Below are positions 721 through 58,835 of a stretch of 64,000 bases of DNA, piece by piece; positions within the stretch are counted from its first letter, which is position 1; every line of letters starts with the position of its first letter. Both the position numbers and the translations under genes were made by a program. The DNA is taken from NCBI GenBank assembly GCA_021904315.1, contig CM038910.1, forward strand, positions 26,298,256 to 26,362,255, in the 5' to 3' direction. Origin of the DNA: Sphagnum magellanicum (taxonomy: Eukaryota; Streptophyta; Sphagnopsida; Sphagnales; Sphagnaceae). The notes below the pieces were generated by a model that worked only from the letters and a program-made list of their open reading frames with translations, had not been told where the DNA came from and did not search any database.

Positions 721-2513
721 TTAAGCACCCACCAGACCTCCAGCAGGAAACAGCCGCTTCCGAATCTGAAACACAATAAAAAAAACCGCCCCACGTTGCC
801 ACATCAATTCAAGAGCCCAGAAGGAGAATGACTAACTACTTTATAATGCCTATAGCAAAGCCATCAAGACTCTTTCATTTGCCATAATTGCCCTGTTGCA
901 AGTGGCATTTCTGGGTTGAAACTTCAAGTTCTCGCAACCCTTCATTTTGAGAGGTTCCCAATCATGGCAGTTATCAAGAATCTGAAGCTAATTGTAAGGA
1001 CTGAGGATCTCCAACAAAAGAAAAAAAATCCAAGTCCTGGATCTTTCTGTAATTAACAGTTTCAACTGGGAAAGTCCTGAAATGAAAGTGCACCTCAGGA
1101 AGCTGCTGCTTGAAGACAACCTCCAAACGTGCATCCAGAGTGTTTTCCAACACTATGCGTCCATCTTTTGTTGCCAAAACAACACCCCCAGCACTGTCAC
1201 ACCCCAATAAACATGATTATTCAGGAGAACACCCACCACACAAGCAGCAAAAAGTATCAGTTTTTCATACAAAATTTCCCACAAATCATCTACATACAAA
1301 GCACAAGGAGCTACACCAACAAAGAGGAAAACGTCCAAAAATTCCTAAAGATTGGTGGAAGTAGAGTACCATGAGGATCCATGTTGGCCTTCTTTTGGAG
1401 GACCAGGAAGAAAGTGTTTCTCATCCACAAATACTTCAGGTGGATCCGCACCAGTTTTTTTGGCATATGAATTTGCAGCAGAATTGACAACAGATTTAAC
1501 ATAATCAAGATCATGCTCCCGGCAACGAAGCTGTACTGCAGACTCATTCAACCTCAACAAACCCTGCACCAAAATGCATGCCAAAGTAGCCATGATGGAG
1601 TGTACCTGTGTTTTCTCAAAGTGGAATTCCAAGTGCTGAGTATTTGGAGATTTGGATAAGGTGGTGGAACAGCAAACCTGGAGGATGAGAGCTTCAAGAA
1701 GTGAAGGATAGTCATCATCATCCAAGCTCACAGATCGGAGCTGCTTTTCTGCTGCATCCTTCATCTTGCGAACTAGATCATCCTGTGCTTGCAATACCTT
1801 CAAACGCGATGCATTCAGCTGCGTGGAATACTCTCTACACAAGATATCAACCCACCGCAACAATCAGTCAGTCAGTCAGTCAGTCCTCCTAACTATCTGA
1901 ATTCTTTCAGTTTCCTCTGATCCTTCAGCAAATCAATCTGGCTCTGGATTTGTAGTACTACATTTTTTTGCGCACATCGACTTGCTTCTCCTTGCGCTCA
2001 TATTCCTGCTTAATCTTCTTCTTCTCGGCCTCCACCAGCTGGAGTTTCTCTATATTGAATTCCTGAATCATCTCAGCCATGGAGTCACATCAATCAAAAC
2101 CCACATCATTCCATACCTGTAACCACATCAGAAGATGTCTTTCTTGCTTGCAGAAAGATTGCCAAAAAACCACAAGAACACAAAGAGTGAGATTTACCTG
2201 GGCTGCAAACCCTAACTACAAAAAGCATTCCACATAATACATCACACTGAAAAAACACATAGAGAACCGAAAGCCGTTGTGGTTTCTCAATCAATACCCT
2301 CTACAACAACAGCAAACACCCACCCACAAAAAAAAGAAGCATCTGAATCATCGGTTTTCAGTTTCTGGGATCAGATCGGCACCCAAATTAGGATTTTTTT
2401 TTTTCCCTCACCTCTTCGGCAGCGACAGAGATCTCATTTGCCTTCTCTTCAGCTTCCTGTTTTATGAAATGCACCATCTGCTGCACCTGCTTGGAAACCT
2501 CGGAGTCGTTCAT
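721..2513 (-). CDS. VHA-E: V-type proton ATPase subunit E (VHA-E), six exons
   Basis: Subunit E is a peripheral-stalk component of the V1 sector of the vacuolar/endomembrane H+-ATPase, where it pairs with subunit G as a stator. Exons on the minus strand are 2412-2513, 1962-2062, 1678-1834, 1370-1563, 1094-1193 and 721-765. All have GT-AG borders and phases join cleanly, giving 232 residues, the usual family length. The start MNDSEVSKQVQQMVHFIKQE is the conserved family N-terminus, followed by a charged helical stretch (EKLQLVEAEKKKIKQEYERK). Later come LNASRLKVLQAQDDLV, LLRLNESAVQLRCRE, and SCAGGVVLATKDGR with NTLDARLEVVFKQQLPE. A 15-codon last exon supplies the conserved IRKRLF ending and the stop. 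Introns are short. Intron 2 carries a (GACT)n run near 1863-1886. If the last intron is not spliced, the frame stays open to a stop at 974. Identification is firm; exon edges are by eye. Confidence 0.93.
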
Positions 2514-29513: not shown

Positions 29514-30590
29514 CTAAGATTCGGAATTGTTCTTCTGTGGTGGCAAGGGGATGGTAGTGGTCTCCTCTAGTCTCTCAAGCTTCTTCTTCTCTAAAAGGCC
29601 CACCTCCTCATCAACAGCTGGAGACTGCAGCTGCTTCTGTGCCTCCTTGGCCTTGAGAGCCTGCAGCTTTGCATGGTTATAGAAGCACACCCCAATAAAG
29701 GCAACCACATAACCCATAAGGTTAATGGGAGTAACCCGATCCATGATGACTGACCATGAGAAGGCAATGAGCAGCCAGTCTTTGGCCACACCTGCAACAT
29801 TCATAGTCAAAGCCGAAGTTTTCCCCACCAGCAGAAACACTGCCAGGTTGAGTGCGAACGCAGCCAGGGAATTCAACCCAAACACAACAAAATCCACCTT
29901 GAATGTGGATGTTGCCTGCAGAACTGGATACTCCACAAGCGCCCAAGGGATGGAGAGAAAAACAAAACAGCATGGTGCAACATAGTAGAGAGTGGAAATA
30001 GGATTCAGAGTGATCCCTTTGGAAGTCAAGAGAATCTGGATCATCACTAGGCGAATAGCTTCAACAACCACGGCACCCAGTTGCAGCAGCACACCAAAGA
30101 GATTGAATTTCGCCTCACCATAAGCTGCAATGGCAACTCCCACAGAGATCCCCACCATGTTGGTCATGGTCTTGGAGTCAAAGGCATCTTTCTTCAGCAT
30201 GACGCCAGTGGAGTACACTGCAACAGGCATGAGAGCCTTGAGCATCTGAATGAAGGAGACGGAAAGGTAGATGTAAGCAGAATTGGACAACCAGAGGGAG
30301 AGAGAATACAAAGCCCCGATTGGCACCACGGAGGACATGAAAAGCTCCCTCGTCATGTTCAGCGGCTCCACTACCTTGAAGACGCGTACCAGGAAGAAGG
30401 CTATGAAGGAGCAGAAGCCCATGTGTATCATGGTCAGACTGATCGGGAAAGGCCAGTTGTACATCTTGCGATCCAGAATGTACTTGTTGAACACAATCAC
30501 CGTGAAGCTAAGGAAAATCCAGATCGCTACGTAAGCGTAGCTCACCAAGATCTTCTTGTACACCGCTGCTGCGGCCTCTCCCCTCCCCAT
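29514..30590 (-). CDS. Sugar-phosphate/phosphate translocator, KT/TPT family, intronless
   Basis: A 358-residue single-exon protein of the plant drug/metabolite-transporter superfamily. It belongs to the group annotated as probable sugar phosphate/phosphate translocators of the KT subfamily, generally placed in Golgi or other endomembranes; the substrate is not deducible here. Family marks are [106 protein letters not shown] and [16 protein letters not shown]. About ten hydrophobic segments are visible, with a cytosolic-type charged tail at the C-terminus. I chose the ATG at 30590 ([15 protein letters not shown]) because the family starts MG-K/R-G. The frame is open further upstream to an ATG at 30779, which would add 63 basic residues without family support. 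Confidence 0.93.
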
Positions 30591-32100
30591 TGTCCCGCTC
30601 TTTTGCTCTGCTTCGTTCAACAAGCCTGTTGTTTGCCTCTTCCCTGTTCTTCTTCCACAGAAGTGTGAACAGGATGATTCTCTTCCTAGTTCTAGAGAGA
30701 CAATGACGCTCTTCCAACGCTTCAGAGCTCTCTTGAGAGCAGGAAATAGCCCCAATCTCTGACGTTTTTTGCTTCTCAAGACAATGTTTCGTGCTCTGAC
30801 GCTCTCTGCTTTCTATTCTTTTCTGTTCAAATCATAATACTTACAGCATCGGTTTGATCAACCGCTTGTCTCCGGGGCCTTCCGCTTGCTGCGATCCTGC
30901 AAAGCTCCGAAAGAAAGCTTCGATTTCACTCTGCCTCCGTCGTTTTCAGATAATACGAAGCTCCAGAATCAAAGATGCAATTTCCCGCAGTTCGGCAGAC
31001 ACTAAGTTCTGATTTTCGTCCAAATCCGCGTATACTACTCTTCTCTCTCTTTCTATCTCCCCTCGTACATCGCCTCTCTCAGAGAAGAAAAACCGAAGCA
31101 AAAACCAAAGCAATGCCGAACAGATACGCTAATCTCACTCCTCTCTTTCCTATTTTCAATTCTTCTTGCCCAAGAAAAGAAAGCAACGAACTGAAGAGAG
31201 ATCGTCAGACCTCCAGAAACAAATATGAAGTTTTTGCACTTGGTTCTGGTTTTTTCCAAAACCGTGTATTTACTCTTCTCTCTGTTTCTATCTCCCCTCG
31301 TACGTCGCCAATCTCCGGAAAGAAAAACCCCGCAAAACCCAAAGCATTGCCAGAAAACAGATACACAGATCCCACTACTCCTCTCTGTAGAATTTCAATT
31401 CTCCTTGCTCAAGGACAAAAAACAGCAACTGATAACTGTAGGGAGGCGATCCTCAGACCTGCTCCTCCGGACGAGTTTCGCGCCTCCAAAAATGGACAAT
31501 GAGTTTCACCTCCGTTCTTCCTCGTCTCTTGTCTGTTTCGGGTCGTTTAAAAGCCAAAAAAAGAACAGCAATAACACGCATTTTCAGCTACAGCACTGAT
31601 CTGACTTCAATCAACAGAGCGTGGAGCAATCAGAAGCGCAACAACCGCAGGAAATTTAGCACGGGCGAGAGCAGTGGTGCACTTCCGCCATCACTCCTCT
31701 TTCCCCTCCTCGCTCTCTCCCACCTTCCCTCCCTCCCTCCCTCCCTCCCTCCACGCCTTCAAAGCCCTGAGAATCTTTTCCGTATCTTTTTCCTCCCACG
31801 GTTCAGATTTCCTAATGTCCACATCCGACGGTCGTCCACCACCGAAATTGAAAAGATGTCACTTTTGCATTGCTGCAATGCTGGGTGGTCCCGGGCAAAT
31901 GGTGGGTCGGGGGCCCAGGCGACCCGCGCTAGTTCTCCATCTCACCGTTCACCCGGTTACTTATCGGACGGTTGCCGTGGTGACTGACTGGTAACCACCA
32001 GTTGATTTTACCAGAGGTTTCGGTCGTCGTCACGCGGGGTTCCAAAGTCGGGCGACGCGGAAAGGTGACCGGCTGTAGCTAGTCTCCGGCCTGTACTGTG
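30591..32100. other. Translocator 5' flank, CT-rich
   Basis: GC- and CT-rich DNA upstream of the minus-strand translocator; probable 5' UTR and promoter. It contains a tandem duplication (31020-31490) and a (CCCT)n run near 31725-31752. Several 70-175 codon frames on the plus strand track the duplication and show no family resemblance, so they are not called as genes. Confidence 0.5.
31020..31490 (+). repeat. Tandem duplication of about 236 bp upstream of the translocator
   Basis: The two units (from about 31020 and 31256) share 'actcttctctct', 'tttctatctcccctcgtac', 'acagata' and 'cctccagaa/cctgctcc' landmarks in order. Divergence is moderate, so the duplication is not recent. Confidence 0.8.
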
Positions 32101-39370: not shown

Positions 39371-41086
39371 CATTTCCTCCACTTATGAACACATTCATTC
39401 ACGAACCTTCCATTTTTTTTTCACCCTCCATTTAATACATAAGACTAGTTCATAAGACTTGTCACAATAGCTACACCACTTACAAATAAATGATGTTCTA
39501 AAATGACAATTACATTCCATTTTTTAGTTTTGAGCTTGAAGCACTACAAAACTAAAAAAGGGACTATAATTGTCACTCTAAAACATCACCTATTTGCAAA
39601 TGATGCAACTACTTCCTCCATCACACATTTATGCAAAATTTATGATGAATGATTTTACATGAATGTGAAAATTTACATTATTATTTGTTTGTTCCTATTG
39701 AAAACATTGTATTAATATCTTATGGTTGTAGAGTCTACAATGTAACTCCTCATAAAATCAAACATAATTGGTTACATGAATAAATACAATGCATATAAAT
39801 TACTATATATGAAACACATTTAAAACTATAGTGCAATTACTGAACAAATAACTTTGATTAATACAAATTGAATTGGAATTGGGTCTAATTTTTATAATTG
39901 AAACCATATTTTTTTTCTTAATAACCAAACTTGGGGTTCTATTTATGTTTGGAACTACAATTAAAATACAAGTTTTAAATGGTAGGGTTAGGTTAAGTGG
40001 TAGTTCAATTTTGGGTAAATAAAAACTAGGACCAAAACTAGGTCTAATTTTCAAAACTCGAAATATTCTTTTTTTAAATAATCAAAAAATTTATTCCATT
40101 TATGTGTGGCATTGGAACCAAGATAATTTCAATCTATTCTTTAAACCAAAATCAAAGGATAGTTGTAAAATTGAAAAACCACCCAACATTGGATTTAAGT
40201 TTTTACCCTTATTAGATGTACATAGGAACAATTCAAAACATATCTTACAAAACAAAATAGGTCTCGTTCCACCTACTCTACATTAAAAACACACAAACGT
40301 ATCCAAGTGCGTGTATGGATTACTTCACATATTTGTAAAGTCATCTAATCACAAATATTTTCATACAATTACTAAGACTAGTGTAACATGTGCCATTGGT
40401 CCAAGTGTGGATGTAACTTGTTGTAAATAATTTGATAATTATGTAATTCTCTTAGGGGTTATATAGATAATTATTAAGTGGTGAGGTTTCATAATTTAAT
40501 AAAGGTTTGGTGAATTATCATCAAGTAGTCATTACTTCAATTAATGTTCCATAGCTCAAAAATGTGGCATGAAACTTCATGACTTACAAGACAAAACAAA
40601 ACAAACTACCTTGCTTCATAGATGAGTAATGTAAAAATCATTCTAGCAAGCCTTACAATAAAAAGACTACAATACAATACTCAAATTCAACCTCAGGTTC
40701 CTACAAGCCTGGTATTTGTACAAGGCTGGTATTGCCTCATGTCATGCTAGCCTACTAGCCTACTTGGTACCGAGTTGATATTAGGCATAGGCTTATATAC
40801 TGAACCACAACTTCGATCTTTTTACTTACTCTAATTGCATTAACAAGAGACACTTCCAACATGCAAAATTATCTCGAGTCAAAGTTCTGCATTTGTCACC
40901 ATGTAACAACTCTCTATTGCAAATGGGTGTCTCAGATATAATGAATGCCTTTCATTTCTAGAAAGTCAAGTGCTTATTTAGAAACTTCATGGTCTATTAA
41001 CATGACTACAAAGCCAAAAAGTTTGGGAAGATTTATTATTGTTAATTGGCCTTCTTCAGAAAACATTCAATTAACACCCAAAAATT

Positions 41087-43530
41087 TCAAGCACCAAGAA
41101 ATGATTTTGGAGTGAAGCCGTGTGCAGTCAAGCCACCATCGATACAAATGGTTTGTCCAGTTGTAAATGAAGAAGCAGGCATGCATAGAAATGCAATCAC
41201 ACCCGTAATCTCATGAGTTTCTGCCACTCGCTTGAGTGGTATACAGTCCTCAAGGTCAGCTACAAATTGCGGATTGCTTAACATCTGCCACAACAAATTC
41301 ACAGATTTAACCAAAATACATGGGGATTACCTTATTAGAAGAATTCAAACATTCACCCAAACAGGCTGAAAAGAGAAGCCAATCACTCAATTCATATTAA
41401 CCCATCATTTCCATTCCTTGTCTGGGGAAATAGACAACACAATGCAGGGATAATCTTTGTCCTTGCCTCACCTGTTGTGCAAATTTGACAGGAATTCTTG
41501 TCCAGAAAGGAGCGACGCAATTGACTCGAATATGGTCTTTTGCCCAGTCACATGCAAGGCATTTTGTTATCTGTTGCAATGCAGCTGGCCAAACAAACAC
41601 AAACCCAATACAACGTTAATCCATCTGCAGGTCGACCAAATGAAAAATCTCTGCTTGGAGGTTTGTATTCTATTTGCAAACAATACAAGGAGATTGTATT
41701 ATTGCAAACTTGTGAAAGAAACTTAAATTTTGAGAAAGGGAATGTTGAGTAATTTTTGACCCAATTGAGAAATCTTATCCTCCTATATATACCATCTCAC
41801 ATAAACTACAAGGAAAAGCTCATTTGCCCACATCAACATGATCAGTTATTTATACAAGCAAAGACAACATCAAATAAGCAAAACCTTCAAAAACCATAGT
41901 ATCATTAGCTCCATTTTCTTGTCTCCAATTTTGTAGGTAATTGTGATCCAAATTTTCCAAAAATATTATATTCAACTTCTCCTGAAATATTCCAGCTTTT
42001 GCATTTATCTTATTTCCATTTGTAAGAGATGAAACTCATTCATCATTACCAACAAAGCATCCATAAGGGGTGAAATTCATCCACCCTCATCTTTTCTACC
42101 AAGAAATTGAACAAACCCATTTAGTGGGAATTCCATTTCTAGTAGATGAAATTTGTTGTGGAAATTCTTTCGTAAAGGATGACATTCAGTCACCATAGTC
42201 CATTCTATCAAGAAATTCATTGAAAACCCATTTGTCTCCAGGTGTAAATACATACAAGAGGGAACAAAAACATGTGAACATGTGATAATGATAACCTCAA
42301 CCATACCTTGCATTCCACCGTAGAGAGCACCAGGCCAACATGCAACAGTACCCGACAATGATGACACATTTACAATACTTCCATTGCCTGATGCTTTCAG
42401 AAGTGGGTAAGCAAGCTGGCATGTGTGAAATGCAGACTCAAAATTGGCTGACATTCCTGTCTGAATTTCTTCTTCAGTGTATTCGAGCATGGACTTGAGC
42501 ATATTGTAACCCACTGTGCCATTGATCTGCATCAGCAAAAAAATTTGCATCAGAAATTGGAATTGAATGGAAGTTGTTGCAGAAATCATGATCTATGAGC
42601 TCGATGTTCAGATTGCATTTGGGCTTGGATTTTGCATATCCTTTGTTGGTTTCAAATGTTTCGGCATTTGTCATTTCACATCCAGACTCTATTCAAGGCT
42701 CCACACAAGTAATCTATGTATTTCAACACTTGGGGTGTAAGATGTAGACCTCTTTCTTTTTACAAGCAAAATTTCAGCAAGAAGTGAAATTAGAAATGAA
42801 AATTGTGAAAATGAATTGATTCTTGATAGTTTCAATGGCCAGAAGTTGAAAAGAAAAATGACTAAGGTCTGGGTTGGCAGATTATGTCATTTTCTTGATC
42901 ACATTACATGACATACATTACAAGATGATGGTTGTTGCAAATGACAGATTCCATGAGCTTACCAAGATATCAAGCTTTCCTCGAAAATGAGCATCCACTT
43001 TGCGGAAAAGCTCAACACGATCTTGATGGTTACCCATGTCACATACACAGCCTTCCACTTTCCAGCCTGCAGCTCTCCAAGTTTCCAAGCCCTTTTGGAG
43101 ATCAGTATCAAATTTTGTGCAGGTGTACACTGAAGCTCCCAATCCCGCCAGCTCTTCAACAACTCCCAGCCTGGACAACAACAATTACCAGAAGAATCAT
43201 TACATTAGCGTTATCTGTGAAGTGAGCAACTATCTGAGGATAAGTCTATTGTGACAAGGACACATTTTGTTTTGTGATGAAATTTTATTGTTATCAGATG
43301 TTGGTCGGAGACTGGTTGTTGCATAGAAAAGAGGAGGTTGGAGAAGGAACCTCTGATCAACTCCCTGGGAGATTTGACAATTAACTATGGAAAGGGGGGA
43401 AAAGAATCAAGAAGAACTAGAGAAGCTTAATTTGAGAGAAGATGTTGTACCCGATCCCCACAGTGACAAGAGCATTTTTGCCTTGCAAACTCCATCTTTG
43501 TGCAGCTAATGGCTCACCAACGGTCCCCAT
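41087..43530 (-). CDS. Tropinone-reductase-like short-chain dehydrogenase/reductase, left copy, five exons
   Basis: Exons on the minus strand are 43451-43530, 42963-43170, 42307-42526, 41472-41584 and 41087-41284, giving 272 residues, the family length. Tropinone-reductase-like SDRs are NADP(H)-dependent reductases of the classical SDR fold. Matching stretches are RWSLQGKNALVT, VVEELAGLGASVYTC, TCQLAYPLLKASGNGSIV, LACDWAKDHIRVNCVAP, and GVIAFLCMPASSFTTGQTIC with IDGGLTAHGF. Deviations: the cofactor motif, normally TGGTxGIG, reads TVGIG, three residues short. The NNxG region reads NGTVG. Catalytic Tyr is present in LYGGMQ, but Lys at Tyr+4 is Gln. The catalytic Ser (VSSLSG) is kept. No stop or frameshift is seen. 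The reductase activity is therefore doubtful although the gene looks expressed in structure. Confidence 0.9.
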
Positions 43531-43573
43531 TTTGAAAAGTTTGGTTCTCTCTGTTTTCTGTCTTGTAGTTGTG

Positions 43574-43576
<3 letters not shown>

Positions 43577-43610
<34 letters not shown>
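43577..43610 (-). repeat. (GA)n tract in the left SDR 5' UTR
   Basis: A GA dinucleotide run on the coding strand, between the putative TATA box and the ATG. The right copy has a longer equivalent at 53275-53316. Confidence 0.85.
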
Positions 43611-43612
<2 letters not shown>

Positions 43613-43781
43613 TTGACCTCAAAATTGTAAAAATAATTCCTCTTCTGATCTCTACTACCCAACAACTAAAAAACTTCCACTTGCAACCCCAACACCCAAG
43701 AACCAGAAGAAGAAGAAGAAGCAGAAATGTGATTCACAAGCTTTGTTGAATTCTGGAAGTGCCTGGTGGGACACTTGATAA

Positions 43782-43787
43782 TTTATA
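43782..43787 (-). promoter_or_regulatory. Putative TATA box, left SDR copy
   Basis: TATAAA on the minus strand within 'gcatataaattatc', about 250 bp upstream of the ATG. The same element lies at the equivalent place in the right copy. Confidence 0.5.
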
Positions 43788-44374
43788 TGCAATTTTTGTC
43801 TGATGTCATCCATGATGTAACTGGATCTTCTTCCATCTGGTTCTTTGCTTGATGATGGTGGGTCTGCGGTCAAAACCTTCAGTGTGTTTGCTTTGCTTCC
43901 TTGCTTGTTTGTTTTGCACCAGCCTCACCATTGCTGAATGCTGCTGCTGAGAGGTTTTAAAATTTTTTTAAAAAAAAATTAAATTTATCAGAATTTTAAA
44001 AAAATAAATAAATTAAATTTAGTTCCAGATTTTGCAACTAGGCTCAGTGGAGAGGATCCTTGAGGAGATTTATGAATAAATAGCAGCAATTTTGGAGGTG
44101 ATAGTAGATTTCATAATGCAAGTTTGCACCATGAGGGTCCACAAGAGCACTCAGGAGCCCTCAAATCTCAGGATATTGGCATTGACCTAAACTCTGGGAG
44201 TTTCTAGACACAAGGGCACCACAATTGAAATGTTGTTTTGCATTGACCTCAATAGTAGAATTTGTGTAGGTAGTAGGTTCCTTTAGAAGTTGGGGAGCTG
44301 CCTTTTTAACCTAAAAATGTGTAGTTTCCTCTTTTGGACATATGTGTGTGTGTGTGTTTGTGGGTGTGTTTTTG

Positions 44375-44600
44375 TGTTTAGATTCATTATAGAGTATAGT
44401 AGCTTAAGGGATTTTGACCCCCAAGTAATAGGTCTATTTTGATACGAGGATTTTTGAAAGATGATATTTTGGCTTGTGTTGAAACTTGAGATTAGTTATA
44501 ATAGAGTTATAATATCTTGGAAGATTTTGGTTTGTTTTAGAGGATTTTTTGAAGAATTATGGAAACTCAAATATTATTTCACAATGCAAAAAATTAAACA
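44375..44600 (+). repeat. Dispersed repeat family 2, partial copy in the inter-arm spacer
   Basis: Matches the 34640-34830 copy from 'tttagattcattatagagta' to 'ttttagaggattttttgaag', then joins sequence also seen at about 35020-35160 ('ttttttggctacctac'). Confidence 0.7.
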
Positions 44601-47600
44601 TCCTTCTATTTTTTTGGCTACCTACCTATTTGAACCATGCATAAGAAATCTGACAATTTTCTTTTCAATTTTCTAATTTTGGGTGTTCTGAAAAAAAAAT
44701 CATTGAATTTGTATCAAAAAAATTTCAAAATTTTCACACAAAAAAAAAGGAAAAATTAGGTCAGGTTTTTAGGAGGTTGGTGGGACCGACAATATTATTA
44801 TTCAAGTGAGATCTGCTTGCACAAGGAATTAATATTTTGCAATCAGACCCAGACTTGAATATGCTATATATGTGTAATTGCAAAATTTTAGATGCCAATT
44901 TCTAGTGTTCATAACTTGATAGAGAAAGTTATTAATAGCTAGATGTTGTATTACAGTGATTTTTTTTTCCAATAAATTATTTTGGAATTTTATTTTTTCC
45001 TAGTGTAAATTCCACTAATTTTGATTTTTTTGGTGAAATTTTTGCCAAATTTTCAACATAAAATTTTTGAAAAGAAAAACCTGGGTTGTAGACCTCAATT
45101 CTTTGACTACAAGAAAATATGGTTCTTAATACAGCAATAGGGGGAGAAAACCCCAAAAGACTTGGTTCTTAATACCTAGTGCTGTATAGTTAATCCTTAA
45201 ATTTTCGGTATTTTATTTTAATTTTATTTTCAATTTTTTGATGTTGCTCAAGTGACGATGGTCCATTTTAAGTATATTCAGCCAAATTTGGCAATACTCA
45301 AAATATGAAAATATAAAATCTTAAGCACCCATTCATATTTTGTAGGCAATTGAGGCAAATGTTGGAGAATTGCTTTTGTTTTCCTCCATTAAAAAAAAAA
45401 GGGAATGTGCAATAGAATATTGGAAAAATAATTTGAAAAAATATTAATTATTCATTTTATTCAATTTGAAAGTTGACCCAAGTCAAAAGTTGACCCTCGG
45501 TGAAAGTTTACGTATGGAAGGGAAAAATCCATAGATATCACCCAAATTTTTAAAAATAAAATAAAATAGACATGTTCCTTCTCAAACACTCTACACAACA
45601 TATAACACCTCAAAACATTTTTTCAAGCACAAAAAGACAATAAATAGTCAATGCAAAAAAAAAGAAAAACAACCCTAAAAAGACCCATGTCAATGTTTTG
45701 CAAACAAAAAGACTATAGGCTACTAGGTAAACAACAACACCTTGTTCTAACACACCCTTTCAACCATGTCAATGTTTTACAAGAAACAAAAAGCCTATAG
45801 TCAATCAAACCTTGCACATTAGTATTACTTTATATGTTGTTTCCTCCTTTCACATGTGTCTCTAGGCTAACTAACACATGTTGGATTCCAAAAGCTTGTC
45901 AAAATTTGGCTTCCAAGTGGGGGTGAGGGGAGGTTTTCTTTGACATTCCAATTTGCTTTGCTTGTGACATGTGCCAAAAGCCTTTGGCTATTAAGAATGA
46001 TTGACTACACTGCCACTATAAGTATTGACTACAATGTACAGTGCTAGAAGAACTCAAAATGTCTCTTCTTGGGTGTGGTTATAGGGGTTTTTTTAAATAT
46101 TTTTTTAAAATTTAAAATTATATATAATTTTAATATAATTATATAATAATAATAATATAAGTCATCTTAATATAATTTATTATTATTATTATTATTATTT
46201 TGGTGGGTCAATTTTGTGCAGCCAAAGTGGCAATCAATTCATAAGATGACTTGGCAAGATTTGGTGATAAGAAAAGATGAAACTTTTTTTTTGTAAATTA
46301 TCATCCTTTTTTTTTTCTTTTTTTTTCTTGAGATTTTCATTTTTTAGTTACCCTTTTGGGGGGAGAATTTGCCAATTAAAAAAAATGGCTCTTCAGCAGT
46401 TGGGAAATTTCAAAATTTTGAAAAATTCAAATATGTGGTGCAAGGGTTTTTATTTGTCAGTTTTTTTTAAAAAATAAATTAAAAAATGAATAGATTTCTC
46501 TATTTATGTTCCAGAAGAGTACCCAATGACAAGATGCTTAGATTCTTTCATTTTATTGTTTATAGCCACTTTCATTTCTTGGTTATAGCCAGATTTGGCT
46601 AAATCTTCTTATGGATGATTGATCACCACTTTTGATTGCATCACAAAATTGGAAAGAACTAAGGAAATGGAAAGGGGAGGAAAAAAACCCGTATTCCAGC
46701 ATGAAAAATCAGGTGTGGTTTGAGGAAGGTTCATGAGGTGTTTCTATAAACACAAAGTTGTTCCCACATTTTGAGGAATGCTCGGCATGTGTTTCTATGA
46801 AACACAAGGAGCTTATTCTTTTGGAATAACATGGAACATTTTTTATTTTAATTTAATTTTGTTGTTTTCACCTAGTGTTGTGCAGTTTTTTTAAAAAATT
46901 TTTTTTTTTAAATTTTAAAACCTCAAGGGTTGGTTACCTTTTATTAAAAGATTTTTCAAACCTTGGGGTGAGGGTTTTTTTTTACTATTTTAAATCTTCA
47001 ATTAAGGTTAATGTTTTTTTCCCTAAGCATAGCATAGGAGGGTTCTCGGGTATTATTAGGGTTTAAGTTTTTTATTTTGACAAGAGACCAATAAGGGTAA
47101 TGGTTAGGATTTAGGGTTGTTAATTAGATTGTCAAAACACGATAAATTATGTCCCCTACAACAAAATCTGTGACTACTAGTTCTTTTGCTTCAATGCACA
47201 CATTCATTTCAGTGTAGAACCAAGTTGTAATAGAACTACCAAGAATGGAAGCCCCCTTTAATCACTTTCATGGAGCTCTACATTTATATCAAACAAGATT
47301 TGCCTCATTTATATTGTGACTCTAAAAGCTTCAAAATGTTGGTTCACAACTCTAGCCTCTTTAAGAATATACACTAAATCTAAAATTAAGCACTATAACA
47401 ATGACCATTGAACCTTAGGAACTCAAAGAACTCAAACCTTGTCGAAAAAGAAAAATCTTTCAATAACAATTCTAGGTCAAAAACAAAAAAAAACATGGAA
47501 ACACTAATTCTAAGTTTCATGATTCAAACTCAAGCCTATAAATAAGTAGATCTTATGTTAAGGTTTAGATTTGGTGATCGAGTCATGGGTTGTCAAGTTC

Positions 47601-47823
47601 AAATTCAATTTACCCTTCCTCAGAAACCTTTGGGTGTTACCTTGAGTTCTAGAGAACCACACAATACTAGTTTGAACCAATGTTGTATGGGTTTCAAAAA
47701 TGGCACCAAATCTTTACCCGTTAATTACAAGAAAGGTTTTTTTTCTTTTTTTTTTCAATCAATTTTGTGATATAGCCAAATTGGAGGTCATCCACAATCT
47801 AGCTATAAAATATATGAATTTAT

Positions 47824-47862
<39 letters not shown>

Positions 47863-49250
47863 AATAGTTGGAATTAATTGTAAAAGTCTAAATTTTACTT
47901 TTTTTCTAAAACTTGGTGATTTAAGAAAAAAATTTGGGCAAAAATTGTTGTATGTGTCAAAATCATAGCTTTGATCAACAAAATGTGAAAACTCAATAAA
48001 ATAAAATAAAATATTGGTTATTAATGTGGTTTTTTGATCTTATAATTATTAATATCAATTAATCAAATAATTAATTTTAATATAACCAAAATTCCCCATA
48101 TCCTTACAATGAAAGAACTAGTGTTGGCCACATATACTTCAATGCATTGATTATCAACATGCATAATGCCCCTATTATCAATAATTCATATTTAAATTTT
48201 TCCCATCTTTTGTATTTGGAGCTATGGGTAACCAAAAAATGTAGGTCCAAATGATATGTTTGTACATATTTACACATATAGGTTTTTTTCATTATGCATA
48301 TTTATTGTTATTTTTATGAGATCTTGAATATGTATAACTATGTTATATATATTTTTTATATGGTGTTTAGGGTTTGGATATGCGTATCCTTGATTAGGGT
48401 TTAGGGTTTTCAAACTTCTTCATCCCTTGTCCCTTCAAACCTTCTTTTTTATGTTGCATCGAAGTTTTACAAAAGTGAATTTTGACAACAAAAGTTTTTC
48501 CTTTTTCTTATGAATGGTCTTTGTGTCACATCATTTGATTGAATGTTTAAGCATTCGAGCATTGGGGTGTTTGAATGTTTCAACACTCGAACAAATGTTA
48601 AGCATATGAATGTCTAAATGTTTAAGGTTTGTTTGACATAATTTGGAGTTTTGAGGTTTGTTGTTTGTTGTTTTTCATTAAAAGGTTTATTTTCAATCAT
48701 ATCTAAGGGATGACACAAAACATTTAGGACATGAACAAGAAGAGACGAGAAGAAAAAAAAAGATGGTGATGATGTGTGGTGTTTGTTAATTATTTGTTTA
48801 TTTACAGATTTGTGAAAGTTGTGGTTTTGTTGTAATTCATTAAAAGTTGGAATTCAAAACCCTAAATGTTCCTCATTAGAAGTCGCAACTCATCAAAAGT
48901 TGCAGCTTGTCAAAAGTCAGAGCTCATCATTGTAACTTGTCAAAAGTTCCACCTTGTTGGAGTTTTGTCATTTTGTTGTAGTTCATCAAAATTTGGAACA
49001 TCGTTACAATAGGTCATTGAAATTTTGTTGCAACTCATCAAAGTTCCGTAAGTCATTGAAATGTTGAAGTTTTTGTAACAAGAGGTTTTTGGACTTCTTT
49101 ATATTTATTGCAAAACATTTCATTTTTAGTGCATGTTGTATTTACAATTTATTAAGGCTACACTTGATTTTTGCATGTCATTTGTCATTTTTTTATAGGT
49201 TGGACTTAAAGCTTTTGAAATTCAATAGTTTGCAATGTGTAGTGTGTGTT
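44600..49250. other. Inter-arm spacer, AT-rich, no gene recognised
   Basis: AT-rich DNA with (ATT)n near 46140-46200 and (TA)n at 47828-47859. Two telo-box-like 'gtttagggttt' motifs lie at 48364-48410. No coding region is supported. Confidence 0.5.
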
Positions 49251-49260
49251 GATGTGCATG

Positions 49261-51574
49261 ATGGCTACAAAAGACGATTATGTTGTTGTTGATAATGTTG
49301 GTGAGGTTGATGGACCACTTGCATGTGAAGATGTGACCACAAGCAAATTGGACATGGAGAATGACATATTATAGCTTGTGATTATAAAAGTTGATGAAGA
49401 TGTACTTTAAAAACCACACAACTGAAATTCTATTTGTTTCTTTTTTTCTATGAATGATGATTTGCTTGCAGATTTTGAAAATCCACAAATGTTGTGATAT
49501 ATTGTTTATAAATTGGAAAAAATGTTACATAGTTTTCTATCCCAAATTTTTGTTTTGAAGAAGGGCTTGATAAAGTATAATAAAATTAATGGGATTATTT
49601 TCACAAAGAATCATGTTGATTTTGTGCATCCCAAGTTGTTTGTTCAAAGAAAGGCACAACTTGTAAAAAAAACAATGATGGCTAATGTAAATAATTTGTG
49701 GTAGTAAGGGAAGAAAAGGGGCCAACCTTCCAATTTTGCAATCACCACTTATTTTGGGTTCCCAAACCGTTACAAAAATACTAATGAAGCACAACAAATG
49801 TTGATTGAGGATTTAGTGCTTTACATTTGCAAATGTTATTTAACATTTTTTACCCCTAAACACATTTGGTTAAAAAGGTTAGTTTTACACCAATGTCCCC
49901 ATGTTTCATTTTCTTCTTGAATTGTTTTTGTGGATGAAGTGTTTTTTGCAATGGTTAAAGAAACCTTGGATTTACATGTATTTCCAAACCTTGCATCTGC
50001 AACCACTATTTCTTGCAATTTTGATCTTCAAATGTCTAAGGGCGGAGTGGAATTTTTGCCCTTGTGATAAATTTCTTAAATAAATCTTGGACCCCTATGT
50101 ATGTTATTCTGCACTTATTTCAAGTGCATAAAACAAGTCATTAAAGTATTAATATTCAACATGAATCATTATTTTCAAATTTTGGATTAATGCATTATGT
50201 GATTACATCTATGAAATATGAAAGCAACAATTTGATAGCCACAACAGTCACATTGTGCTTCATCATCAATTGTGAACCTTTGACACTTATCAAGGTTTAT
50301 GAAGGTACATGTTTTGGGAATGCGATGTCTAAAGCATACCAATATGTTATTAATGATGACAAAGTTTCTAAAGGTTTAATGCAAGTTAGTGTGAAGGATG
50401 CACAAGCTATTTTACAAAAGACAATTACATGAACAAAGAAATCCATGAAAGGTAGGCAAGAATGAGGGAAGGATTGCATTGAATGTGTGATGTCAACTTG
50501 AAAATTTGAAATTCATGTCAAAATCATATTTGCATTGAAAGTCTCATATAATTTGAAAAGCCCTTGGAATTCAAACACATCATCATTATTTGTTATGGAA
50601 GGCAAAAGACTATCACTTTACAACAAAAAGTTCGAAGTTTCAAATGTGAGCTATTGTAGAGGGATTCACATGAATGATCATGACTTGTGTTATGAATCAA
50701 TCCCATGTTCATTGGTTATTATTTAATGGTTTGATTATTACCATTACCTTAATTGACAAATTATAATTTGAAATGATTGAAATGTTGCAAGTTTCAAATG
50801 GGACAAAAATGATGGACCAATTTGATTTCGAGCTCTTCCTTTTCCAAAGAAACATGCGAGAAGAAGTTGTGAAGAATTTGAAAGAAAATGTCCAATTTTT
50901 TATTTTTAAATATTTAGACTAGGTTAATAACATGTTTGCCATAATGTTGGATCCTTAGTTCAAATCATTATGAATTGTGAAAAATTGGTGGGACATGGGA
51001 ATGCAATTTGACTTGCTTATGAGTATGATTTGAAAATTATGATTCCCCTTTGCATGATTTGTTTTGAAACCCTAAACCTTAATGTTAAAACATGCACATA
51101 TATTAATCATGGTGAAGAACTTTAAAATGAAAGTAACATGTTTGGGGTTGAAGCATCCTTTTAAGAATCTTGTCGAACACTTTTATCATTTGAGAATTAT
51201 CTTTGTTCATGAGGTTATTCCCTATTGCATGTGAAAATCCTTTTATTTTGTGGTGCAACTTGGAAGGGTAGTTTCCAAATGTGGCATTTATGACCAAACA
51301 TATTCTTAGCATTCCAAGGCCATAGATTGAAACAAAAATGGTGTTTAGTCTTGCTAAAGTATTGATAGTTTTGTAACAATGTCGATTACAAGTGGAAAAC
51401 CTAGTTATAATCATCAAAATTGTTAAAATTTGGCCTAACGATCCACACATGAATTTTATGCCAAATAATAATATGAAAGATTACCTAAAAGCTAAAGGGT
51501 CTTTGGTTAATGACAATTATGAATTGATTGAAGAAACAAAATATTTTGAGAATTTGAACATGGATAGTGATTAG
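49261..51574 (+). mobile_element. Decayed hAT-superfamily transposase
   Basis: Frames broken by stops and shifts read in order like a plant hAT-type transposase. MATKDDYVVVDNVGEVDGPL at 49261 is followed by GLIKYNKINGIIFTKNHVDF with VHPKLF (zinc-finger-like spacing), then DLVLYICKCYLTFF, a WLKRLVLHQCPHVSF stretch, FDLQMSKGG, and VYEGTCFGNAMSKAYQYVIN with KVSKGLMQVSVKDAQAILQK at 50300-50430. A C-terminal-like block ends near 51574. Several in-frame stops make it inactive. I did not find terminal inverted repeats or target duplications by eye. Confidence 0.65.
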
Positions 51575-52640
51575 CATTGCATAGAAATTAACTTTTACAT
51601 TATTATTTTTCAACAAATGAATCTTTTATTGTTTTTTTTTCAATTATCATTTCAAAGTTTTTGCAACAAGTTTTTTCCTTGAGGCTTGGAAAGAATTGAG
51701 TCACAAGAGCTAGATATGGGATGACAAACCATTGAGTATTTGCATGGGATAATTGGGGTGGGGTTTAAAGTGTTGGTGGGACAGGTAACTTGCATTGTAA
51801 AAGGCCAAAAGGTAGAGCTATGGTATTTCGAGAATTGAGGTTCAATTCACTTGCAAGTTCCTACACTTTTAGGGATGTGTTTTTATGCATGTGAAAAATA
51901 ATCATGATCATATAAATTTTGAATATGCAAAACCTTTATACATATCTACAATTAATTTGAATTTTAAAACTGACAAATTCATTCATATTCGCCGAAACAT
52001 AAAAAAATAAACTTGAATCCATATTTGCCTTTATAAATAAATTACTGAAAGATTTCAATCCATATCCATTTGTTTGCTGTATATTTGTATAGAATATGCC
52101 TTAATCGATATCTTGAGGTTTCCCCTTGAATTTCTTGTTTGCTTCCCCAAAAAAAAAAAGTGCATGCAATTTGATTGACTCATATACAGTGAAAGTAATA
52201 GTCTACAACCATAGTACCTATGTAGCTTCAACAATAAATAAATAAAATAAAATAATATAAAATAATATTATTCTTGTAAAGTATTGTAAAATTTTCTGGA
52301 ATAGGTACATTTTCAGGAACCTCCCTAAGCAGAGTTTTCCCCTTGCAAAACCCTCTTCAATTTCCAGGCATCTTCAGCTTTAGTAGCGGACTTAAAAAAA
52401 TAAAAATAAAATTTAAAAAGAAAAAGAAAAGAAAAGTGCTTTGATTGGAAGGAAGCATTTTCCTCTGAGGCCATTCCTGGGAGTTTTGGGATTTTCTGGA
52501 TTATTTATTTACCCTTATAATCAGCCAGTGGGTGAGGCTGGAAAGATGTTATAAATCCCCGACCCCCAATTAATATTTTCTAAAAACAAATTGGGTGATA
52601 CCTGAGCACAATTTGCACTCAAAACTTTTTCATGTTATGA
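51575..52640. other. Spacer between hAT remnant and right arm
   Basis: No gene or element recognised. A (AAATA)n stretch lies near 52230-52270. Confidence 0.45.
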
Positions 52641-52660
52641 ATGCTCCAAAGCTCTCACAA

Positions 52661-52845
52661 AACATGCCTAGTGACATGTTATGTACCCCCTAATAAGACC
52701 CATAACATGCCTAGTGACATGTTACCGTACCCCCTAATAGTACCCATAACATGCCTAGTGACATGTTACATACCCCCTAATAGTACCCATAACATGCCTA
52801 GTGACATGTTACGGTACCCCCTAATACCCATAACATGCATAACAT
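52661..52845 (+). repeat. 42-45 bp tandem array upstream of the right SDR copy
   Basis: Four units start at about 52661, 52703, 52748 and 52791. Each has 'aacatgcctagtgacatgtt' followed by 'accccctaatagtaccc'. The first part is an imperfect dyad (ACATG and CATGT arms). The array sits just outside the region shared with the left copy, about 200-400 bp upstream of the right TATA box. Confidence 0.9.
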
Positions 52846-53054
52846 GGACCCAAATTGTCATGGACCCAAATCGTGTTTTAGGTATCGTAGCAGGACCTTC
52901 CCCCCTACGTAAGTAAAGCAATGGTACTGCAAGCAAACAAACAAACAGTGAAGATTTGACCGCAGCCCAGCCCAGCCCAGTCCACCATCATCAACGGAAC
53001 ACCCACATGGAACATCTACTTACATCATGGCTGACATCACGAAACAGAATTGCA

Positions 53055-53060
53055 TATAAA
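53055..53060 (+). promoter_or_regulatory. Putative TATA box, right SDR copy
   Basis: TATAAA within 'tgcatataaattcacgag', about 320 bp upstream of the ATG and conserved with the left copy. Confidence 0.5.
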
Positions 53061-53247
53061 TTCACGAGTGTCCACTGGGCTTCTCCAGAATTCATTCAAC
53101 AGAGCTTATGAACCATCTTTTCTGCTTTTCTTCTTAGATCGATACATACTTCTTGGCTGTTTAGATATCACTCACAAGTGCAAGCTTTTTTAGTTGTTGG
53201 GTGGTAGCGATCACAAGAGGAATTTATTTTAATTTTGAAGCCAGGCT

Positions 53248-53271
53248 GAGAGAGAGAGACACACACACACA

Positions 53272-53316
<45 letters not shown>
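53248..53316 (+). repeat. (GA)n/(CA)n tract in the right SDR 5' UTR
   Basis: A compound run of GA, then CA, then about 40 bases of GA, between the putative TATA box and the ATG. It is longer than the left-copy tract. Confidence 0.85.
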
Positions 53317-53319
<3 letters not shown>

Positions 53320-53375
53320 CAGAACTTCAAGACAGAAAACATAGACACACGAGTGAGAACACAAAACTTTTTAAA

Positions 53376-55904
53376 ATGGGGAGCTTTGGTGTGCCATTAG
53401 CTGCAGAGCGATGGAGTTTGAAAGGGAAAAATGCTCTCGTCACTGTGGGGATCGGGTACAAGATCTTCTCTCAAATTAGACTTCTCTAGTTCTTCTTGAT
53501 TAATTTTCCCCCCTTCTGTAGTTAATTGTCAAATCTCCCAGGGATTTTGATCAGACGTTCCTTTTCCTCCAACCTCCTCTTTTTGTGCAACAGCCAGTCT
53601 CCGACCAACATCTGATATCAATAAAATTTCTTCACAAACAAAATGTGTCCTTGTCACAATAGACTTATCCTCAGATAGTTGCTCACTTCACGGATAACGC
53701 TAATGTAATGATTCTTCTGGTAATTGTCGTTGTCCAGGCTGGGAGTTGTTGAAGAGCTGGCGGGATTGGGAGCTTCAGTGTACACCTGCACAAAATTTGA
53801 TACTGATCTCCAAAAGGGCTTGGAAACTTGGAGAGCTGCAGGCTGGAAAGTGGAAGGCTGTGTATGTGACATGGGTAACCATCAAGATCGTGTTGAGCTT
53901 TTCCGCAAAGTGGATGCTCATTTTCGAGGAAAGCTCGATATCTTGGTAAGCTCATGGAATCTGTCATTTGCAACAACCGTCCTTCCAGTGGTGAATTTTC
54001 AATGAGTTTCGTGATGTAGCTCAACATGTTCAACAAAGATTTTGGTCACAATTAGCAGTGTATAATCATCATCAGAAGAGTATGTCATGTAATGTGATCA
54101 AGAAATTGACATAATCTGCCACCCCAGACCATAGTCATTTTTCTTTTCAACTTCTGGCGATTGAAACTATCAAGAATCAATTCATTTTCACAATTTTCAT
54201 TTCTAATTTCACTTCTTGCTGAAATTTTGCTTGTAAAAGAAAGAGGTCTGCATCTTACACTCCCAGTTTTGAAATACATAGATTAGTTGTGTGGAGCCTT
54301 GAATGGAGTCTGGATGTGAAATGACAAATGCCGAAACATTTGAAACCAACAAAGCATATGCAAAATCCAAGCCCAAATGCAATCCGAACATGGAGCTCAT
54401 AGATCATGATTTCTGCAACAACTTCCATTCAATTCCAATTTCTGATGCAAATTTTTTTGCTGATGCAGATCAATGGCACAGTGGGTTACAATATGCTCAA
54501 GTCCATGCTTGAATACACGGAAGAAGAAATTCAGACAGGAATGTCAGCCAACTTTCAGTCTGCATTTCACACATGCCAGCTTGCTTACCCACTTCTGAAA
54601 GCATCAGGCAATGGAAGTATTGTAAATGTGTCATCGTTGTCGGGTACTGTTGCATGTTGGCCTGGTGCTCTCTATGGTGGAATGCAAGGTATGGTTGAGG
54701 TCATCATTATCACATGTTCAGATGTTTGTGTTCCCTCTTGTATGTATTTACACCTGGAGATAAATGGGTTTTCAATGAATTTCTTGATAGAATGGACTAT
54801 GGTGACTGAATGTCATCCTTCATGAAAGAATTTCCACAACAAATGTCATCTACTAGAAATGGAATTCCTACAAAATGGGTTTGTTCGATTTCTTGGTAGA
54901 AAAGATGAGGGTGGATGAATTTCAACCCTTATGGATGCTTTGCTGGTAATGATGAATGAATTTCACCTATTACGAATGGAAATAAGATAAATGCAAAAGC
55001 TGGAATATTTCAAGAGAAGTTGAATATAATATTTTTGGAAAATTTGGACCACAATTACCTACAAAATTGGAGACAAGAAAACAGAGCTAATTGTAATATG
55101 GTTTTTGAAGGTTTTACTTATTTGATGTTGTCTTTGGTTGTATAAATAGCTGATCATGTTGATGTGGGCAAATGAGCTTTTCCTTGTAGTTTGTGTGAGA
55201 TGGTATGTATAGGAGGATAAGATTTCTCAATTGGGTCAAAAATTACTCAACATTCCCTTTCTCAAAATTTAAGTTTCTTTTCACAAGTTTGCAATAATAC
55301 AATCTCCTCATATTGTTTGCAAATAGAATACAAACCTCCAAGCAGAGATTTTTCATTTCGTTCATGCGTGGATTAACATCGTATTGGGTTTGTGTTTGTT
55401 TGGCCAGCTGCATTGCAACAGATAACAAAATGCCTTGCATGTGACTGGGCAAAAGACCATATTCGAGTCAATTGCGTCGCTCCTTTCTGGACAAGAATTC
55501 CTGTCAAATTTGCACAACAGGTGAGGCAACGACAAAGATTATCCCTGCATTGTGTTGTCTATTTCCCCAGACAAGGAATGGAAATGATGGGCTAATATGA
55601 ATTGAGTGATTGGCTTCTCTTTTCAGCCTGTTTGGGTGAATGTTTGAATTCTCTAGTAAGGTAATCCCCATGTATTTTGGTTAAATCTGTGAATTTGTTG
55701 TGGCAGATGTTAAGCAATCCGGAATTTGTAGCTGACCTTGAGGACTGTATTCCACTCAAGCGCGTGGCAGAAACTCATGAGATTACGGGTGTGATTGCAT
55801 TTCTATGCATGCCTGTTTCTTCATTTACAACTGGACAAACCATTTGTATTGATGGTGGCTTGACTGCACACGGCTTCACACCAAAATCATTTCTTGGTGC
55901 TTGA
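53376..55904 (+). CDS. Tropinone-reductase-like short-chain dehydrogenase/reductase, right copy, five exons
   Basis: Exons are 53376-53455, 53738-53945, 54469-54688, 55408-55520 and 55707-55904, identical in length to the left copy, giving 272 residues. The N-terminus reads MGSFGVPLAAERWSLKGKNA where the left copy reads MGTVGEPLAAQRWSLQGKNA. Other differences are few (for example NFQSAF for NFESAF, NPEFVA for NPQFVA, MPVSS for MPASS). It shares the TVGIG cofactor motif, the NGTVG segment and the YGGMQ active-site substitution with the left copy, so these changes predate the duplication. The intron 1 sequence was checked for a micro-exon restoring TGGTxGIG and none was seen. Frames and splice sites are intact. 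The promoter has an added tandem array at 52661-52845. Confidence 0.9.
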
Positions 55905-55999
55905 AATTTTGGGGTGCTAATTGAATGTTTTCTGAAGAAGGCCAATTAACAATAATTAATCTTCCGAAACTTTTTGGCTTTGTGGTCATGTTAATGGAC

Positions 56000-58530
56000 C
56001 ATTAAGTTTCTAAATAAGCACTTGACTCTCTAGAAATGAAAGGGCATTCATTATATCTGAGACACCCATTTGCAATAGAGAGTTGTTACATGGTGACAAA
56101 TGCAGAATTTTGACTCGAGATAATTTTGCATGTTGGAAGTGTCTCTTGTTGATGCAATTAGAGTAAGTAAAAAGGTTGCAGTTGTGGTTCAGTATATAAG
56201 CCTATGCCTAGTATCAACTCGGTACCAAGTAGGCTAGTAGGCTAGCATGACATGAGGCAATACCAGCCTTGTACAAATACCAGGCTTGTAAGAACCTGAG
56301 GTTGAATTTGAGTATTCTATTGGAGACTTTTTTTGTATGGCTTGCTAGAATGATTTTTACAATATTTATCTATAAAGGAAGGTAGTTTGTTTTGTTTTGT
56401 TAGTTTCATGCCACACTTTTGATCTTTTGGAAAGCTCTCAATGAATAAGCGTACGCCCACTTGGTTTGCGACTTTTTGAAGTTTTCGTGTGGAAGCTATT
56501 GATTATTGAAACATTTTCTCGATGAAAAATGGAAACATAAAACTATATTGGAATTTGGGGCTTTCTTGGTGTTATTGGAAGCTTTACAATGAGTTAGATT
56601 TAATAGAGTTTATTTCACAATTTTCAGAGCCAAGGTGTGAAAGATATTGATTTTTGAGTGAATTTTGTTCCAAAAATTCAAACAAATTACAAAAAATGGG
56701 TTTGGAGGGGAAAACCAATTGACCCTTCAATGTGTTCGGATTGCTGAATTCAGAAATTTTCAATTCTGAAAGTGTGAAAACTAAATAATGTGTTCATGTG
56801 GAAAACAAACGAATAAAAGATCAAAATTATTTATTTTCATTATATAGCTATGGGGATATATGTTTTTTTCACAAATATCTACTCATATGTCTATTTTATA
56901 TGTATATATAAGCATCCCTCCTATTATGGATTCTATATAATTTCAAAGTATGCAAAAAAAAAAAACTTTTGAACAATTTTTCAATTCTATTTCACAAATC
57001 TATTTTATGAAACTTTCAATTTTTTATAGCAAGTTTTATTTTACTCAAGTGAAAACGTGTTTAAAAATTTGAAACATTCACTTATACAATAACCAAAAAG
57101 AAACTAAACAAGAAAAGTCATAAAACCTTACACCTTATATGAGTCACCATGTGATTTAACATGCACACTAATTTGTGCCATGATTTTTATAATGAGTCAT
57201 TATCTTTTATTTACACACATTAATTTATCTCATGATTGTTTTAATGAATCATAATCATTGAACCATGCACATTAATTGAAATTTTGACTAATTAAATTTG
57301 TCAAGCCATTATTAAATTATGAAACTACACCACCTAATAAGTTACCCAATTTAATCCTTTAAATGATTATTTAATTATCAAGCTATTTACACCAAGTTAC
57401 ATTCACACTTGGACCAATGGCACATGCTGCACTGATTTTAATTATTATATGAAAAGACTTGTGATTGTATGACTTTATAAATAAGTGAAATAATCCATGC
57501 ACACACTTGACTATGTTTATGTATCTTTATGTAGAGTTGGTGGAACTAGACCTCTCTTGTTTTGCAACATCTAGCTATGAAGCAAGGTTGTTTGTTTGTT
57601 TGTTTTGTTTTGTACCGATGAGATCCACCAAACCAAGATGCTCCAAATCATGTTCTTGATGTCTTTGGAAAGCTCTTGAGGAGGAAGGGTGCATCAGCTT
57701 GGTTTCATGATGTTTGGACTTGTGGTGCAAAAGTTCTTGAATATTGGATGATTTTTTCACTGAACATTAAAGTGTTACCATGTCCTGAACTGATGGTTTT
57801 GGAAGGAAAAATCAGTTCAGGACGTGGTAACACTTGAACGTCTACCATTCAATTCAACTAGAAGGAATTGTGATGTGCCTTTGGTGTTGTTGCAAAGATC
57901 TTGCAATGGGATTGGGGACATGGTAACACTTGGGCCAATGGCACAGGCCACTCTAGTCTATTTATGAAGGAAGGTAGTTTGTTTGTTTTGTTTATACTTA
58001 TGAGATCCACGGAACTAGGATACTTCAAATCGCGTTTTTGGTCTCTTTGGAAATCTTTCAAGAGGAGGGGTGCATCAGCTTGGTTTCATAACATTTGGAC
58101 TTGCAGTGTAGAAGTTCTTGAATATTGAATGATTTCTTCACAGAAAATTAAATTAAATCGTAGCTAAAATTTTCAGAGGAATTAGAAAGTGCCAAGTTGG
58201 TGTTATTGGAAAGATCTTGATGAGCAGGATTTAATGGAATTTATTTGGAAAGATTTGGGTTCAGAATGTGGGAGATATTGATTTTTAAATGATTTCTGTC
58301 ACTGAAAATTCAAATAAATTTCAAAAAACTAGGTTTTGCAAGGAAAAATTAGTTGAGGACATGGTAACACTTGGGCCAATGGCACAAGCCACATTAGTAT
58401 ATGTTTTGAATTGTTCCTATGTACATCATCTAATAAGGTAAAATCTTTAAACCAATGTTGGGTGATTTTTCAATCTTACAATTAACCTATGGTTTTGATT
58501 TCAAAATAAATGGAATTATCTTGGTTCCAA
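56000..58530. other. 3' flank of the right SDR copy and expanded arm segment
   Basis: There is no supported gene. Repeated blocks near 57540-57760 and 57950-58130 share 'gagatccac', 'catgttcttgatgtctttgg/cgtttttggtctctttgg', 'catcagcttggtttcat' and 'gttcttgaatattg'. These form a local direct duplication about 415 bp apart. Confidence 0.6.
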
Positions 58531-58835
58531 TGTGACACATAAATGGAATCAAGAATTTGGTTCTTTAAAAAAACATTCAATTCCAGTTCTAAAAATTGGA
58601 CCTAGTTTTTGGTCCAGTTTTTTATTAATCCAAATGGAACTACCATTTAACTTGGACCTAGGCACCTTTTATTTTAAAAAATTGAAACATGTATCTCAAT
58701 TCTTGTTCCACACATAAAGAGAATTCCAAGTTTGATTCTTAAAGAAAAAAAAATCTAGTTTCAATTCTGAAAATCAAACCCAATTCCAATTTGATTTGTA
58801 TTAATTAAAATTGAAATGATATCTAATTTGTAGCC

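Follow-up and report, generated by a model that had tools for sequence, protein, structure and literature searches.

In excerpts of PMC3541173 and PMC3783447, a working classical short-chain dehydrogenase/reductase (SDR) was defined by two features, TGxxxGxG and YxxxK, and an excerpt of the latter gave the catalytic tetrad as N-S-Y-K. The SDR 6y4d, Arabidopsis At1g07440 (PDB code 1xq1), and tropinone reductase II (2ae1) read TGGTKGIG or TGGSRGIG, NNxG, and YxxxK. Here, two related genes, copies A and B, were analysed in a 64,000-nucleotide stretch of the Sphagnum magellanicum genome (assembly GCA_021904315.1, contig CM038910.1, positions 26,298,256 to 26,362,255), which is called the window. 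On their sequence patterns, both copies are probably protein-coding, selectively maintained SDR pseudoenzymes of tropinone-reductase-like descent. In the open-licence literature searched, no report of an SDR65C pseudoenzyme was seen and no paper linking Sphagnum with tropinone reductase was found.

Altered motifs and retained residues of copies A and B

Copy B matched the profiles PF13561 (E = 9.7e-48) and PF00106 (E = 1.7e-34). Its best PDB matches were plant tropinone-reductase-like enzymes aligned over nearly the full length, with E values between 1.4e-66 and 3.9e-63 for the seven best; 6y4d, 1xq1, and 2ae1 matched copy B, and noroxomaritidine/norcraugsodine reductase (5feu, 5ff9) was also among the close matches. 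Judged from this similarity, the genes descend from a tropinone-reductase-like classical SDR, and the label SDR65C was given by similarity. Each copy was composed of five exons of 80, 208, 220, 113, and 198 nt, equal in length between A and B. All introns were of the GT..AG type, and the joined exons gave an open 272-codon frame with no stop codon and no frameshift. A preliminary description of this DNA had claimed open frames, five matching exons, and intact splice sites, and the coordinates, exon count, and sites all agreed with it. Copy A (43530-41087, minus strand) and copy B (53376-55904, plus strand) faced each other with their 5' ends, about 9.8 kb apart. The exons were as follows.

43451..43530, minus strand: copy A exon 1, from the start codon to the TVGIG loop; donor GTACAA; aligned with paralog exon 1
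42963..43170, minus strand: copy A exon 2; 207 of 208 nt equal to copy B
42307..42526, minus strand: copy A exon 3, with NGTVG, the catalytic Ser and Tyr, and YGGMQ
41472..41584, minus strand: copy A exon 4; 113 of 113 nt equal to copy B
41087..41284, minus strand: copy A exon 5 and stop codon
53376..53455, plus strand: copy B exon 1, with the TVGIG loop
53738..53945, plus strand: copy B exon 2
54469..54688, plus strand: copy B exon 3, with NGTVG, Ser, Tyr, and YGGMQ
55408..55520, plus strand: copy B exon 4, which exceeds exon 4 of the three paralogs by 6 nt
55707..55904, plus strand: copy B exon 5 and stop codon

Both copies read TVGIG in place of TGGTxGIG, which shortened the loop by three residues, NGTVG in place of NNVG, and YGGMQ in place of YxxxK; the three alterations named in the preliminary description were thereby confirmed in A and in B. 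The canonical motifs of 6y4d, 1xq1, and 2ae1 were absent from copy B, whereas the Ser and Tyr residues were common to both. The catalytic Lys was changed to Gln by AAA to CAA inside exon 3. A Tyr-x6-Lys spacing, as in enoyl-reductase type enzymes, was ruled out, the next Lys being located 12 residues past Tyr.

The genome (438,994,042 bases in 31 contigs, with the window on contig C4) was searched for relatives. Among the best candidates, to which scoring was confined, exon 2 gave five matches at E<=0.001, exon 3 gave nine at E<=1, and exon 5 gave 14 at E<=1; the best six of the 14 exon 5 matches were taken as this SDR family. Three intact five-exon paralogs (C7, C19a, and C19c) were obtained, with gene models built by hand from the DNA.

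C7:20704743-20709353: intact five-exon paralog
C19:3188921-3192225: first intact five-exon paralog on C19
C19:3211227-3213630: second intact five-exon paralog on C19

The exon number, boundaries, and phases of these paralogs matched those of A and B, and an error in the splice models of A and B is therefore unlikely. The C7 paralog was 57% identical to A and 56% identical to B. All three paralogs carried the canonical motifs, reading TGGTRGIG or TGGTKGIG, NNVG, and YAASK or YGGSK. Relative to them, A and B differed by three in-frame indels that the paralogs lacked, a loss of 9 nt in the Gly-rich loop, a gain of 3 nt at NNxG, and a gain of 6 nt in exon 4.

The tetrad residues Asn, Ser, and Tyr were retained in A and B at the aligned positions, and only Lys was lost. 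Residues Asn123, which we take to be the tetrad Asn, and Ser151 (C7 numbering) were invariant across the alignment, including A and B. Residue Ser151 was assigned from its position 13 residues from Tyr, a spacing given in an excerpt of PMC3783447. Tyr164, Asp71, and the last three loop residues, G-I-G, were also kept. Arg46 was replaced by Lys and Thr199 by Ile; both positions presumably contact NADP. Among the features of a classical SDR, fold homology and the tetrad Asn and Ser were thus found in A and B, and TGxxxGxG and YxxxK were absent.

As a motif yardstick only, 13 bacterial SDR loci, distant relatives that came from a single scan, were used. All three intact paralogs and all 13 bacterial loci kept TGxxxGxG, and YxxxK was kept by all three paralogs and by nine of the 13 loci; the other four bacterial loci lacked YxxxK yet had the Gly loop. 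In that small bacterial set, the loss of Lys is not rare and the loss of the loop is without parallel. Four bacterial SDR loci from metagenome-assembled genomes (L026-L029, two of them labelled Acidimicrobiales) kept TGxxxGxG and had FAAAMGG at the YxxxK position.

The bacterial loci without YxxxK, together with the retained Ser, Tyr, Asn123, and Asp71, are compatible with A and B still being redox enzymes, that is, unusual SDRs with a shorter loop and no Lys, perhaps slow or acting on another substrate. The Lys at position 46 could, in addition, still pair with phosphate. However, a loop shortened by three residues, a lost catalytic Lys, a lost Thr199, and an altered NNxG were all combined in one protein, and none of the three intact paralogs showed any of these four changes. 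Continued redox activity is thus a quite unlikely reading. In the pseudoenzyme reading, which we prefer, the shortened loop and the missing Lys would prevent normal NADPH-dependent reduction.

Selection on the two copies and the age of the changes

Copies A and B differed at 22 of 819 coding bases, of which eight changes were nonsynonymous and 14 synonymous. The preliminary description had suggested computing dN/dS between the copies, and the ratio was 0.163 by counting (dS 0.079, dN 0.013; binomial p = 5.2e-5 against neutrality). Five of the eight amino-acid changes precede the loop in exon 1, and exons 2-5 contained three amino-acid against 10 synonymous changes. Codon maximum likelihood was performed with our own GY94-type script, not PAML, on 263 of 281 alignment columns of five moss genes. 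The ratio was 0.14 on the two A/B tips and 0.43 on the other branches, and fixing the tips at 1 gave a worse fit (twice the log-likelihood difference, 2dlnL, of 18.0). One neutral copy would give a ratio of about 0.5 or more, which was disfavoured (p = 0.011).

Between A and B, first codon positions differed by 2.2%, second positions by 1.1%, and third positions by 4.8%, compared with 4.5% in noncoding sequence (98 substitutions in 2193 sites). All 20 indels between the copies were located in the 2311 noncoding bases and none in the 819 coding bases; only four of the 20 were multiples of three, and two were terminal in the alignment. Simulated neutral evolution, with the noncoding rate applied, gave an expectation of about 27 nonsynonymous changes and 10 synonymous ones, and none of 5000 runs ended with eight or fewer nonsynonymous changes. 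The substitution pattern after duplication points to purifying selection on both copies. In the simplest reading, the substitutions between A and B came later than the motif changes that the copies share, so that the protein under selection was one already altered. A change could also have become common to both copies by gene conversion.

These data bear on whether A and B are young pseudogenes, with function lost recently and stop codons not yet gained. The lost core motifs and a relative on contig C9 that is already a broken fragment would fit such decay, as would the open frames and the ratio on the stem described below. Nevertheless, the dN/dS of 0.16, the rejection of a ratio of 1 on the tips, third positions that, unlike the first and second, diverged at the rate of noncoding sequence, and the absence of exon indels all argue against it, and the motif changes common to both copies place the A/B substitutions after them. 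The pseudogene reading was rejected on this substitution pattern and is very unlikely; neither a disrupted frame nor a neutral pattern, by which a pseudogene is recognised, was found in A and B. Of the marks of a pseudoenzyme, residues essential for catalysis in active homologs were lost from both copies, and selection on the coding sequence was detected since the duplication only. The low dN/dS and the neutral simulation support the earlier suggestion of a retained non-catalytic or re-purposed SDR, and not simple decay, as far as sequence can indicate.

Several results weigh against the pseudoenzyme reading. In the neutral simulation, 23% of runs were free of stop codons (a chance of 0.23), so open frames alone were weak evidence. 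The stem leading to A and B had a ratio of 0.59 compared with 0.36 elsewhere, which was not significant (2dlnL 2.7), a stem ratio of 1 was only borderline excluded (2dlnL 3.8), and stem and tips pooled gave 0.42, about the same as 0.40 on the other branches. A relaxed phase is therefore possible, with constraint seen only after duplication. A further comparison speaks for the pseudoenzyme reading. In the alignment of six intact enzymes (the three paralogs and the three solved enzymes), 84 residues were invariant, of which copy B changed 15. These comprised six of 16 cofactor or active-site residues and nine of 68 others, an enrichment whose significance is weak (Fisher p = 0.033), since the functional class was our own choice from known SDR motifs, without the tetrad Asn, after the alignment had been viewed. 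The gap placement at T20-G22 was arbitrary, and Glu125, one of the nine other changes, was altered in B only. When each of the six intact enzymes was left out in turn, 0, 0, 0, 0, 0, and 1 functional changes and 4, 3, 4, 7, 7, and 12 other changes, respectively, were counted.

The C9 relative was an exon 3 fragment of the same subfamily.

C9:1577057-1578397: exon 3 fragment with bits of its introns and a stop codon, in two pieces with about 1 kb of other DNA in between

Its two pieces were 90% and 93% identical to B and carried NGTVG and YGGMQ; both changes therefore predate the duplication of A and B. The fragment, in which exon 1 was not found, was silent on the Gly loop. The earlier claim that the changes predate the duplication is supported by these results, since all of them were present in both copies and two were also present in this more diverged fragment. 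At sites where A and B agree, C9 showed 10 differences among 218 exon sites and 11 among 146 intron sites. Ten codons differed from both copies, seven of them giving another residue or a stop. The differences were unpolarised, apart from one on the A/B side (Ala in A and B, Thr in C9 and the paralogs). A relative without visible constraint has thus broken. Published whole-genome duplication peaks, given in an excerpt of PMC9946827, were at synonymous divergences (Ks) of 0.406 and 0.643; the dS of 0.079 between A and B is below both, and the duplication is therefore younger than both, with the reservation that the methods differ.

Alternative exons, the inverted duplication, and other loci

It is scarcely credible that the real transcript regains the canonical motifs through alternative exons or splice sites. 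The preliminary description had named transcripts with another exon restoring TGGTxGIG and YxxxK as evidence against its reading, and no such exon was found in the locus DNA by tblastn or motif scan. The tblastn search of the window with exons 1 and 3 of intact paralogs recovered the exons already identified, and all further matches were weak (E>0.3). Scanning 40500-56400 for the motifs in six frames yielded 16 matches, of which two were in exon 3, and none elsewhere had TGG or a Gly loop. Intron 2 of both copies contains, in an open frame, the one sequence that could favour restoration, YAKSK, which was without an SDR-like flank and appeared chance-like. Furthermore, the donors and phases matched those of the paralogs, and the Lys-to-Gln change lies within exon 3.

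An assembly artefact, or one gene seen twice, would suit arms 95% identical over 2.4 kb, but the probability is negligible given the 98 noncoding substitutions and 20 noncoding indels between the copies, their placement on one 26.7 Mb contig in opposite orientations with about 10 kb between them, and the return of both by the whole-genome DNA search.

The arms of the inverted duplication, identified by self-BLAST of the window, included the genes and their flanks.

40553..43861, minus strand: arm A, gene and flanks
52982..56425, plus strand: arm B

The arms were 95% identical over 40553-42916 (2.37 kb) and 84% identical over 42927-43861 (a further ~1.0 kb). Additional inverted matches with 78-79% identity were located beyond both arms, at 39850-40547 and 57269-58812, and the duplication, or its repeats, may extend past the genes.

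Intron 2 of copy B contained a repeat of about 110 nt (54025-54133), with dispersed matches on many contigs that were 77-88% identical. This repeat accounted for 35 of 44 rows of the whole-genome DNA search, in which the best 40 of 539 candidates were scored. It was only partly present in copy A, and the alignment of A and B had 88 nt of gaps at 53982-54080.

A further copy, at C19:3195000-3204900, lies between the two intact paralogs on C19; exons 4-5 were the only ones recovered from its 9.9 kb, and it is a probable truncated gene. Contig C17 contained an exon 3 piece that still reads NNVG. Elsewhere in the window, three of five scanned open frames matched ordinary genes.

29514-30812, minus strand: match to a triose-phosphate transporter family protein
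1345-1863, minus strand: match to V-ATPase subunit E
11962-12414, minus strand: match to an E1 dehydrogenase component

Possible roles and comparison with known pseudoenzymes

SDRs are dimers or tetramers formed through helices E and F. Copies A and B largely keep the regions that we presume to be these helices; few invariant residues were altered in the stretches taken as helix E (Glu125 in B, His135), helix F (Lys168, Glu181), and the C-terminal strand (Pro227, Val252). The presumably dead A/B chain might assemble with the active paralogs on C7 and C19, and in such a mixed assembly it could stabilise, restrain, or re-tune them. We favour this partner role because SDRs are oligomeric, the genome contains intact paralogs, and in other families dead paralogs are known to control their partners, and we propose it tentatively, as a possibility by analogy. 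A stand-alone ligand-binding role is unlikely, and the remaining probability falls on other non-redox roles. A bolder proposal, doubtful yet conceivable, is that an SDR without the dinucleotide loop became a cofactor-free protein that puts the empty reductase pocket to use as a small-molecule binder or an obligate regulatory subunit, here duplicated head to head and retained as two copies.

Dead paralogs under selection mark functions that are missed by enzyme annotation. Copies A and B lack both the loop and the Lys, with the remainder of the protein apparently constrained. This one genome, which has intact relatives as well as the duplicated pair and the broken fragment, offers a clean natural series on the SDR fold without its chemistry.

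The animal SDR pseudoenzymes HSDL1 and NMRAL1/HSCARG have the SDR fold and have lost catalytic residues, and they keep dinucleotide binding; in contrast, A and B are without the loop. Excerpts of PMC5201418 and PMC3663545 described dead paralogs that activate their partners, the trypanosome prozyme of S-adenosylmethionine decarboxylase (AdoMetDC) and the dead subunit of deoxyhypusine synthase (DHS), and an excerpt of PMC11742589 cited a plant pseudoenzyme that takes part in indole supply. The prozyme and the dead DHS subunit resemble A and B in that a dead copy is kept beside active paralogs. They belong to other enzyme families, and the partner activation reported there, in those excerpts, is for A and B a proposal only. 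If an SDR without its dinucleotide loop does serve as a binder or regulatory subunit, copies A and B would represent, among plant SDRs, the equivalent of receptors derived from enzymes and of dead subunits that act as activators.

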